The notes under the pieces: model-generated
The model's input: the letters and a program-made list of their open reading frames with translations, nothing else
Told to the model about the DNA's origin: nothing
The model's database searches: none
Shown: positions 1,704-3,841 of the stretch, piece by piece
How positions within the stretch are numbered: position 1 is the stretch's first letter
Layout: each line of letters opens with the position of its first letter
Made by a program: the position numbers and the translations under genes
NCBI RefSeq assembly: GCF_017876495.1
Contig: NZ_JAGIOB010000001.1
Coordinates: 2,914,001-2,978,000 of the forward strand
Reading direction: 5' to 3'
Length of the DNA: 64,000 bases
Source: Microlunatus capsulatus
GTDB lineage: Bacteria; Actinomycetota; Actinomycetes; Propionibacteriales; Propionibacteriaceae

Positions 1704-2861
1704 TCAGCGGTCGATGTCGCCCACGACGTACCCGACGGAGGCGAGCGCGACCTCGAGGTCGGCCACCGGCACGCCGACCAGGACCTGCTCCAGGGCGGCG
1801 GCGTTGCTGAACGACGGCGTCCGCAGGGCGAAGCGCCAGGGCGTCTTCTCCCCGCGCGAGACGACGAAGAACCCCGCCACGCCCAGCGGCGCCTCGAGCG
1901 CGAGGTAGGCCTCGCCCTCGGGCAGCTTGACGATCTTGCCCAGCCGCACCTCGACGGGCCCGCCGACGTCGGCGAGCCGGGCGGCACAGGCCGCGACGAG
2001 CCCGCAGGCGTCGACCACCTCGGCCAGCAGCGCGGCCCAGCGGGCCCGGGCGTCGCCGGCGGTGGACGGCACGGGTCGCAGCCCCGCGGCCAGCTCGGCC
2101 CAGGGGAGCGGTGACGGGGTGCGCCGCAGGTCGAGGTCGACGCCGGCGGCCCGGGCCAGCACCCCGCCGAGGCCGAAGGCGGTGACCGTCGCGGCGTCCA
2201 CGGGCGCGACGCCGGCCCCGACGGCGGGGGATCCGGCGAGCAGGTCCGCCACCTGCTGGGCCGCCGCGCGGACGCGTCCGGTCAGCGCGACCTCGGCGGC
2301 CAGCCAGGCCGGGTCGGCGTCGACGGCGAGGCCGCCGATCCGGGCGACCATCGGGTGCACGCGGTTGCCGGTGAGTGCCCGCGTCTGCTCCCGCAGCGCC
2401 TCGCGCAGCCGCGGCAGCGCGGGGGCGCCGGGCAGCCGGGCGGCGACGGCGGACAGCAGCCCGAGGTGGCTGAGCACCCGGGTGTGCTCGGCCAGCAGGA
2501 CGCGCAGCCAGGAGGCCCGGGCCGGCACCTCCAGGCCCAGCAGCTGCTCGCAGACCAGGGCGACGCCGAGCTCGCCGAAGAAGGGGGCCTGCCAGTCGTG
2601 CCGGTCGGCGAGCATGCCGATCTGGCGGTAGTCGCGGACCTCGAACAGCTTCTCCGCGCCGCGGTGCAGGGCGCCGACGACCACCCGGGCGCTGGTGACC
2701 CGGCCGTCGTCGGTCCACAGGTCCAGCGCGACCAGGCCGGTGCTGCTCGGGTGGTCGGCGCCGAGGTCGAGGACCAGGGTGCCGTCGGGCGCCGGGGCGG
2801 CCGCGTCGGGCAGCACGCCGGCGGCCAGCGAGCCGACGAGGACCCGGAGCGGCGCGTGCAC
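1704..2861 (-). CDS. NuoD paralogue (complex I 49-kDa-like), quinone site altered
   Basis: 385 residues aligning by eye along its length with NuoD/NDUFS2, down to the C-terminal GDIDR (GEVDR in human). Conserved: HP at 37-38, LHRGAEKL at 65-72, DRHD at 86-89 and RVH at 167-169. The arginine of LHRG (R67) corresponds to NDUFS2 Arg85, the residue dimethylated by NDUFAF7. The two quinone-contacting residues are replaced: the His of HPAAHG is Thr41 and the Tyr of DRLDY is Trp90. It starts at GTG 2861, 4 nt after the stop of a MidA-family methyltransferase. No other nuo gene lies nearby. I recall a stand-alone 'nuoD2' near nadB/nadC in Streptomyces. It is probably not a complex I subunit in the ordinary sense; its partner is unknown. 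Confidence 0.85.
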   Translation of the reverse strand: MHAPLRVLVGSLAAGVLPDAAAPAPDGTLVLDLGADHPSSTGLVALDLWTDDGRVTSARVVVGALHRGAEKLFEVRDYRQIGMLADRHDWQAPFFGELGVALVCEQLLGLEVPARASWLRVLLAEHTRVLSHLGLLSAVAARLPGAPALPRLREALREQTRALTGNRVHPMVARIGGLAVDADPAWLAAEVALTGRVRAAAQQVADLLAGSPAVGAGVAPVDAATVTAFGLGGVLARAAGVDLDLRRTPSPLPWAELAAGLRPVPSTAGDARARWAALLAEVVDACGLVAACAARLADVGGPVEVRLGKIVKLPEGEAYLALEAPLGVAGFFVVSRGEKTPWRFALRTPSFSNAAALEQVLVGVPVADLEVALASVGYVVGDIDR

Positions 2862-2865
2862 CCGC

Positions 2866-3834
2866 TCAGGGTGCCACAGCGCCGGCGGCCACCTCCTGCA
2901 GCAGCCAGCGGTGCGCGCCCCACCCGGCGGGGGCGGTCAGCGCCTGCCGACGGCTCCGCGCGGCGAGGGCGGCGAGCGGGTCGGCGGACGGCGGGACCGG
3001 CGGCAGCAGCCGGGGGAGCACCTCCGCCTGGCGTCCTACGAGCACGGTCCGGGCGCCGGCGGCGGTGCCGGCCGCGGCGACCGCGTCGAGCGCGACGTGG
3101 GCGGTGAGGTTGCGGTCGGCCCGGGGCCGCGGCGCGACGGCCCGCCCCGCGCGGAAGGCGGCCACCGAGCCGGCCGGCGGACGGGAGCCCCGCTCGTGGC
3201 CGTAGTCCACGGCCAGCGCGGCGCCACCCGGACCGCCGGCCAGCGCGCGGACCACCGCCGCCCAGGCCGCGTCGCGGGTGCGACCCACCTCGGCCCGCTC
3301 GCCGTCCGGCCACCAGCGGCGCAGCCACGCCTCGTCCGCGGCGGCGGGGACGCCGCGGGGCTCGAGGTCGGCGTCCAGCTCGTGCCAGCCGGTGCCCGTG
3401 CGGCTGACGACGGGGCAGGGCAGGTCGTCCAGCCACTCCACGGCGAGCACGAGGGTCGGCGGCCCGTCGGCCAGCAGGTCGGGCACCGCTCCGTCCGCCC
3501 AGCGGTCCCCGCGGACGTCCCAGCGGTCGCCCACCCAGCCGAGGGCCCCCGCCAGCCCGGGGGGCCGTCCGCGCACGTCGACGCCGACCAGCGCGAGGTC
3601 GGGCCGGACGGCGCCCAGCCCCCGCAGCAGCGCGCCCTCACCGGCCCCCAGCTCCACGACCCGGCCCACCTCCGGGCGGTCGCGGAGCAGGGCGGCGACG
3701 GCGTCGGCGAGCTCGGGACCCAGCGTCGACGCGGTCCGGAAGTGCGCTGAGGGGACCTCGGCGGCCCAGAACCCGCCGGGCTCCGTGGCGGCGCTCACCC
3801 ACGCGTCGAGGAACGACGGCGCATGGGGGACCAT
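2866..3834 (-). CDS. MidA/NDUFAF7-family SAM-dependent methyltransferase
   Basis: 322 residues. Family signatures in order: FRTASTLGPELADAV (the F-TAPE-like N-terminal motif), VVELGAGEGALL (SAM motif I, about residue 58), AVEWLDDLPCPVV (matches the ANEFxDALP motif), ALAVDYGHERGS, and DRNLTAHVALDAV (the DxTAHVDF motif). In mitochondria NDUFAF7 symmetrically dimethylates an arginine of NDUFS2, the NuoD homologue. Here the gene is directly upstream of a NuoD paralogue that keeps that arginine, so the neighbour is the obvious candidate substrate (inference). ATG 3834 overlaps the divergent nadB start region: only 7 bp separate it from ATG 3842. Confidence 0.85.
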   Translation of the reverse strand: MVPHAPSFLDAWVSAATEPGGFWAAEVPSAHFRTASTLGPELADAVAALLRDRPEVGRVVELGAGEGALLRGLGAVRPDLALVGVDVRGRPPGLAGALGWVGDRWDVRGDRWADGAVPDLLADGPPTLVLAVEWLDDLPCPVVSRTGTGWHELDADLEPRGVPAAADEAWLRRWWPDGERAEVGRTRDAAWAAVVRALAGGPGGAALAVDYGHERGSRPPAGSVAAFRAGRAVAPRPRADRNLTAHVALDAVAAAGTAAGARTVLVGRQAEVLPRLLPPVPPSADPLAALAARSRRQALTAPAGWGAHRWLLQEVAAGAVAP

Positions 3835-3841
3835 GGGCGCC

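Follow-up and report, generated by a model that had tools for sequence, protein, structure and literature searches.

The stretch of DNA analyzed here, referred to as the window, comprises 64,000 nucleotides of the Microlunatus capsulatus genome (NCBI RefSeq assembly GCF_017876495.1, contig NZ_JAGIOB010000001.1, positions 2,914,001 to 2,978,000 of the forward strand) and carries near its start two adjacent genes. These encode a methyltransferase of the MidA/NDUFAF7 family that depends on S-adenosylmethionine (SAM), hereafter MidA, and a NuoD/NDUFS2-like subunit, hereafter D2 (NuoD2). D2 belongs, as its D subunit, to a second complex I that lacks NuoEFG (nuo2), and in the Propionibacteriaceae, taken as the family of the window (f1), nuo2 is reduced to NuoB2, NuoC2 and NuoI2 encoded beside korAB, plus D2 and MidA. 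The two genes probably represent this nuo2 D subunit and its maturation methyltransferase, with MidA dimethylating Arg67 of D2 near cluster N2 of NuoB2 in a module that is fed by ferredoxin and has no membrane arm.

Both genes and all of the motifs described here are on the minus strand. MidA (2866 to 3834, 322 amino acids) starts with the ATG at 3834 and its stop codon ends at 2866. A spacer of 4 nt (2862 to 2865) separates it from D2 (1704 to 2861, 385 amino acids), which has a GTG start at 2861 and a stop codon ending at 1704. An earlier note on this DNA had described a MidA-family gene with LGAGEG, AVEWLDDLP, DYGH and LTAHV motifs located 4 nt before a NuoD-like gene with LHRGAEKL, and every element of that description was confirmed. 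MidA scored above the cut-off of Pfam PF02636, formerly DUF185 (44.2 bits versus 23.3, E 2.1e-11), and phmmer matched its residues 51-271, a stretch covering all of its motifs, to the DUF185 structure PDB 1zkd (E 5.6e-7). The complete motif set is present, namely the SAM-binding glycine motif LGAGEG (3634 to 3651), the acidic E(W/F/Y)xD motif in the form EWLD at residues 133-136 (3427 to 3438) and DYGH at residues 210-213 (3196 to 3207). G63, A64, G65 and G67 of the glycine motif were invariant in the MidA alignment A2 (11 rows), as were EWLD and DYGH in the class alignments A2 and A4 (9 rows).

D2 exceeded the cut-off of Pfam PF00346 (Complex1_49kDa; 124.9 bits against 24, E 4.1e-36) and fell far under the cut-offs of all listed NCBIfam NuoD models, with a best score of 206.5 bits against 360. 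It is therefore named NuoD-like and not an equivalog NuoD. Arg67 of D2 (codon 2661 to 2663), in the HRGxE motif, is equivalent to the dimethylated Arg85 of NDUFS2 and was invariant in the D2 alignments A1 (10 rows) and A3 (16 rows), the loci of A3 having been found in part through the HRGxE motif itself. The arginine was present in all 17 D2 rows of the window family. In five MidA-positive genomes of another family, f18 (loci L043, L044, L045, L046 and L048), HRAAEKL replaces HRGxEKL, so that the arginine is kept and the next glycine is changed to alanine. Relative to the closest relative found (G011), the ratio of nonsynonymous to synonymous substitution rates (dN/dS) was 0.23 for D2 (85% amino acid identity) and 0.30 for MidA (71%); that of NuoB2 was 0.11. 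These ratios indicate that D2, MidA and NuoB2 are under purifying selection and that D2 and MidA are not chance open reading frames. The D2 gene of a genus-mate (G018) was identical letter by letter to that of Microlunatus flavus, Propionibacteriaceae. A scan of viral contigs found no relatives of D2.

The association between the two genes was evaluated in three partly overlapping genome sets, consisting of 40 relatives, a phylum sample of 246 genomes and a class sample of 344 genomes that were at least 95% complete. Among the 40 relatives, with D2 counted as present at E < 1e-50, D2 was found in 29, a MidA match in 28, both in 27 and neither in 10. D2 occurred alone in G020, a fragmented genome (contig end), and in the complete genome G022, while the single MidA match without D2, in G034, was weak. 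Twenty-five genomes of the phylum sample belong to the class of the window, and MidA was present in 12/12 of those with D2 and in 0/13 of those without. In the class sample, both genes were detected in 111 genomes, D2 only in 4 (G361, G432, G482 and G498), a MidA match only in 6 and neither in 223. The co-occurrence across actinobacteria, on which the earlier note had staked its proposal, was thus strong, with MidA in 111 of the 115 D2 genomes versus 6 of the 229 scored without D2 (Fisher p 4.7e-77, a value that ignores the kinship of the genomes counted). As for those six, G320 does have D2, just under the threshold and beside MidA, and moves to the genomes with both; G034, G396 and G518 have a decayed MidA without the glycine motif; and G494 and G504 gave short partial matches with E between 1e-7 and 1e-6. 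This distribution indicates joint inheritance of D2 and MidA.

Three D2-less genomes of one genus in another family of the order (g9) carry MidA homologues that lack the glycine motif and DYGH and have an altered EWLD (L033:7571-8329, minus strand; L208:8966-9757, plus strand; L209:7899-9791, plus strand). These genes appear decayed or repurposed, and decay is what would be expected of an enzyme whose substrate is gone.

Physical linkage was equally persistent. Among the 110 pairs of the class sample located on one contig, 108 were within 10 kb, with 82 on the same strand, 20 convergent and 8 divergent, which indicates that the linkage of D2 and MidA outlasts rearrangement. MidA was inside the locus in 72 of the 80 named loci listed (at least 80 exist), and 7 of the other 8 genomes had a MidA match elsewhere, one of these partial; the 80 loci were found in part by the HRGAE motif and say nothing about conservation of the arginine.

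The window genome (G000) contains one PF02636 match in total and, besides D2 (a split match), one other NuoD (C1:1725650-1726516, 1.19 Mb away). This canonical NuoD has Thr where D2 has Arg and therefore cannot be a substrate at that site, so that D2 alone of the two NuoD proteins bears the arginine. According to PMC8042128, the NDUFS2 arginine of complex I is a second-sphere residue of cluster N2, and Thermus, which has Thr at that NuoD site, compensates with an Arg in Nqo6 at the position of a Thr in Yarrowia NDUFS7. A corresponding switch was observed in G000, where the complementary site reads SGTVTDRLAP in NuoB2 versus AGRVSQKMAP in canonical NuoB (Thr versus Arg). In the alignments, all 28 NuoB partners of Arg-type NuoD have Thr and all 4 partners of Thr-type NuoD have Arg. 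The combination of D2 Arg with NuoB2 Thr, versus canonical NuoD Thr with NuoB Arg, fits cognate pairs. Additionally, a tree of 82 NuoD proteins grouped the 28 class D2 rows in one clade (support 100/100), with six Thr-type rows separate (100/99). The window-family rows grouped together (100/100) on a long branch, and the position of this clade among the others was weakly supported. The tree omits the D2 of G024, and rows below 200 bits were left unaligned; the D2 of G001, cut by a contig end, is also among the rows left out; the G024 gene (L036:9973-11295, plus strand) is split over two frames by a frameshift or sequencing error. The Arg/Thr switch and the tree together ruled out D2 as a duplicate of the canonical NuoD.

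The partners of D2 were located elsewhere in the genome. At C1:~1690104-1691562, about 1.2 Mb from D2 and MidA, G000 carries a nuo2 remnant made of a second NuoB (NuoB2), NuoC2 (PF00329) and NuoI2, which resembles a two-cluster ferredoxin. The remnant is divergent from korAB, the alpha (POR_N E 2.2e-54) and beta genes of a 2-oxoacid:ferredoxin oxidoreductase, and the same divergent arrangement was seen in 6/6 window-family loci read. A second NuoB was present in 20/20 D2-positive class genomes tested, whereas 12 D2-negative class genomes gave one NuoB-family match in 8, none in 2, five in G077 and three in G182. These second nuo genes ruled out D2 as an orphan, and they do not bear out the earlier view of a stand-alone NuoD relative of unknown role, as D2 belongs to a nuo2 set whose B2, C2 and I2 genes are found in the same genome. 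The dedicated pairing proposed in the same note fared better: linkage, co-occurrence and the status of D2 as the only Arg-bearing NuoD in the genome speak for it, so that the interpretation given in that note is supported in part.

The window set is a reduced derivative and not a full 11-subunit complex, since no second NuoH was found. No NuoH2-type gene was found in any of the 11 D2-positive window-family genomes tested; G000 has one NuoH, the canonical copy, and G013 showed just a remote second NuoH match (E 4.7e-34). In other families of the class, NuoH2 was whole in 11 of 12 D2-positive genomes and a fragment in one (G099). The other nuo2 membrane genes (NuoJ-N2) were not seen in the window family in the loci around korAB. 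In other class families, wherever the locus sequence examined extends far enough, nuo2 also includes three antiporter subunits along with H, I and J, with gene content assigned by Pfam in L064 and by similarity to L064 in L065, L070 and L073.

The retained subunits are themselves altered. At the position of D2 Trp90 (codon 2592 to 2594, located by alignment), complex I has a tyrosine that we take to be a quinone ligand near the quinone head group, the roles of this residue and of the second His of HPxTHG being in part our assumption. This tyrosine is replaced by Trp in D2 and in the NuoD of 11-subunit operons, as in RHDW of D2 versus RMDY of the canonical NuoD of the window genome; Tyr87 of Thermus is mentioned in PMC8042128. 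GADHPSSTG of D2 (residues 34-42, 2736 to 2762) corresponds to GPQHPxTHG of complex I with the second His lost. That His was absent in 17 window-family D2 rows, whereas the NuoD2 of other class families keep it. Window-family NuoB2 lacks the quinone-side loop, which in complex I is presumably turned toward the membrane, and window-family NuoI2 begins just before the first cluster motif, its N-terminus being about 40 residues shorter than that of L050, a locus outside the class described below. All four N2 cysteines of NuoB2 were kept in 6/6 loci, as were all eight cluster cysteines of NuoI2 in G000. The simplest reading is that the module retains its clusters but is no longer seated on a proton pump.

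These features bear on two other explanations. One is that the nuo2 remnant, D2 and MidA of the window family are decaying and functionless, as the missing NuoH2, the shortened NuoB2 and NuoI2, the long D2 branch and the decayed MidA of the three D2-less genomes from another family of the order could suggest. This is very unlikely given dN/dS values of 0.11-0.30 and the retention of the N2 cysteines, the NuoI2 cysteines and the arginine at the frequencies reported above. The other is that, under certain conditions, D2 takes the place of the canonical NuoD in the NADH-linked complex I of 14 subunits. D2 is of the same fold family as the canonical NuoD, and the genome has canonical NuoD, NuoB and NuoH, the last of which could provide the membrane part. 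The second NuoB with the matching Thr, the Arg of the canonical NuoB at the complementary site and the lost quinone-side loop of NuoB2 argue against such a replacement, as does the observation that most of the 12 D2-negative class genomes keep one canonical NuoB and NuoH without any D2 (G244 and G268 have neither, and the NuoH count excludes G047). Replacement of the canonical subunit is consequently judged improbable.

A function for MidA as the methyltransferase of the nuo2 D subunit can be compared with known systems. NDUFAF7 dimethylates the NDUFS2 arginine (PMC3829151), and in Yarrowia the arginine is 3.7 A from cluster N2 (PMC8042128). The mitochondrial pair and the window pair share the PF02636 family and the HRGxE arginine in a NuoD/NDUFS2 homologue; they differ in that the window genes are paired, that the candidate substrate is not the NADH-linked NuoD and that methylation by the window pair is a prediction. 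The complex I of Paracoccus denitrificans is NADH-linked. A bacterial precedent is provided by the symmetric dimethylarginine at the same site in this organism, as given in PMC3750175, and it is assumed that its own MidA makes the modification.

In Streptomyces, nuoD2 is encoded apart from the remaining nuo2 genes, according to the portions available of PMC3765725 and PMC8388888. The Streptomyces nuo2 is, like the window set, a second nuo set without NuoEFG and with a separate nuoD2. D2 proteins of family f6 were up to 95-98% identical to the D2 of named Streptomyces and share a clade with the window D2. Within those portions, the nuo2 gene list consists only of A2, B2, D2 and H2 to N2, or less, with neither a methyltransferase nor nuoC2 described (PMC3765725, PMC8388888). 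The nuo2 cluster of a Streptomyces-like f6 genome (G162) includes a NuoC gene (L065:9257-11053, minus strand; PF00329, E 1.5e-32). In contrast to the Streptomyces set, the window family lacks NuoH2 and, near korAB, the other membrane genes. The split Streptomyces nuoD2 had already been published; a tie between MidA and nuo2 and a B2-C2-D2-I2 remnant were not found in the literature searched, nor did the searches return anything on NDUFAF7 with Actinobacteria, or on oxoglutarate ferredoxin oxidoreductase in combination with complex I, Streptomyces and nuo.

Two genomes of other classes provide a further comparison. In L050, nuoA-B-C-D-H-I-J-K precede the genes of three antiporter subunits, MidA comes last, and E, F and G are missing (all by Pfam); L052 has the same order (C was excluded from the Pfam test). 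MidA is the last gene of both 11-subunit nuo operons, directly after nuoN, and each genome also encodes a Thr-type NuoD within a different nuo region (L077 and L076). These operons resemble the window set in their Arg-type NuoD, the presence of MidA and the absence of the EFG genes, whereas they have D and MidA inside the operon and a complete membrane arm.

The immediate surroundings of the pair suggest another explanation, in which its conservation is a by-product of folate-nad-clpC synteny and reflects no functional coupling. The pair adjoins folate genes. Its downstream neighbours are, as we read them, folK, a DUF3180-type gene and a gene for a short coiled-coil protein, and genes that we take to be folK, DUF3180, lsr2 and clpC are common neighbours within the family. 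Such hitchhiking is extremely improbable in view of the co-loss across the class, the maintenance of the pairs in three orientations and the position of MidA directly behind nuo genes in the two genomes of other classes. Upstream of MidA lies nadB, transcribed in the opposite direction. One palindrome, CCATGG (window 3831-3836), is shared by the ATG of MidA and that of a potential nadB start at 3833 (or 3842); if those starts are correct, there is no space for a promoter between the two divergent genes.

In the mechanism that we favor, MidA would symmetrically dimethylate Arg67 of D2, either ahead of or during the assembly of D2 with NuoB2, and Arg67 would lie next to cluster N2 of NuoB2. Electrons would enter from ferredoxin, or straight from KorAB through 2-oxoacid oxidation, and cross the two [4Fe-4S] clusters of NuoI2 to reach N2. 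The window family has lost NuoH2, the NuoB2 loop on the quinone side, the N-terminal NuoI2 extension and the second D2 His. The module would therefore probably be soluble or peripheral in this family, with an acceptor other than the usual quinone pocket. The partnership with KorAB and the identity of the acceptor are speculative. The more specific proposal, that NuoB2-C2-D2-I2 is a soluble iron-sulfur relay fed by KorAB, without a membrane arm and still needing its own arginine methyltransferase for N2 maturation, is tentative and somewhat doubtful. If it were true, the arginine mark would serve the cluster and the B-D interface and not quinone reduction or proton pumping.

Several observations weigh against methylation of D2 by MidA or against parts of this mechanism. 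Outside the class, 23 of 42 MidA-positive genomes, most of them in many contigs, have no NuoD match on the MidA contig; the other 19, which speak for the linkage, have the two matches 48 bp to 20.2 kb apart (G198 has another weak MidA match, on its NuoD contig, that was left uncounted). G128 has two PF02636 matches (L112 and L113) and only a Thr-type NuoD was found there. G282 has MidA (E 1.2e-109) and one NuoD match only, weaker; its MidA region (L109) contained no convincing D2 by tblastn (one match, E 0.03) and lacked the usual neighbours. The G282 MidA, located away from those neighbours, is of the class type; G282 and G128 are both exceptions to the pairing. korAB was within the examined stretch in 3/7 nuo2 loci of other families. 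The literature searched yielded no methylation, expression or interaction data for the pair. Additionally, the arginine was kept in 30/30 Arg-type NuoD from PF02636-less genomes outside the class and in the six MidA-less class D2 (G020, G022, G361, G432, G482 and G498), so that it is usable unmodified. Retention of the arginine was consequently rejected as proof of methylation: the target residue emphasized in the earlier note is present in D2 and carries little weight as evidence. The dependence of MidA on D2 is stronger than the reverse.

The same 30 proteins would be accommodated if MidA had another substrate or acted as a non-catalytic assembly chaperone, with Arg67 unmethylated and kept for packing against N2. 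PF02636 had no match in the E. coli control genome, and in E. coli NuoCD the arginine is conserved yet carries no modification (PMC3750175). EWLD and DYGH are invariant in class MidA, as is the glycine motif in alignment A2, and the human member of the family is known to act on exactly this arginine in an NDUFS2 homologue (PMC3829151); a substrate elsewhere or a chaperone role is therefore unlikely, and the role as methyltransferase of D2 is preferred.

PMC8042128 treats the function of the NDUFAF7 mark, whether in quinone chemistry, assembly or N2 potential, as unconfirmed. Altogether, the split actinobacterial nuoD2 genes can now be assigned a partner enzyme and, as is likely, a cognate complex, and D2 should not be annotated as an NADH dehydrogenase subunit. 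Here a methyltransferase tracks one NuoD and, in one family, persists despite the loss of NuoH2 and of the usual quinone-site residues. Such a system in culturable soil bacteria would let the roles of the mark be separated.

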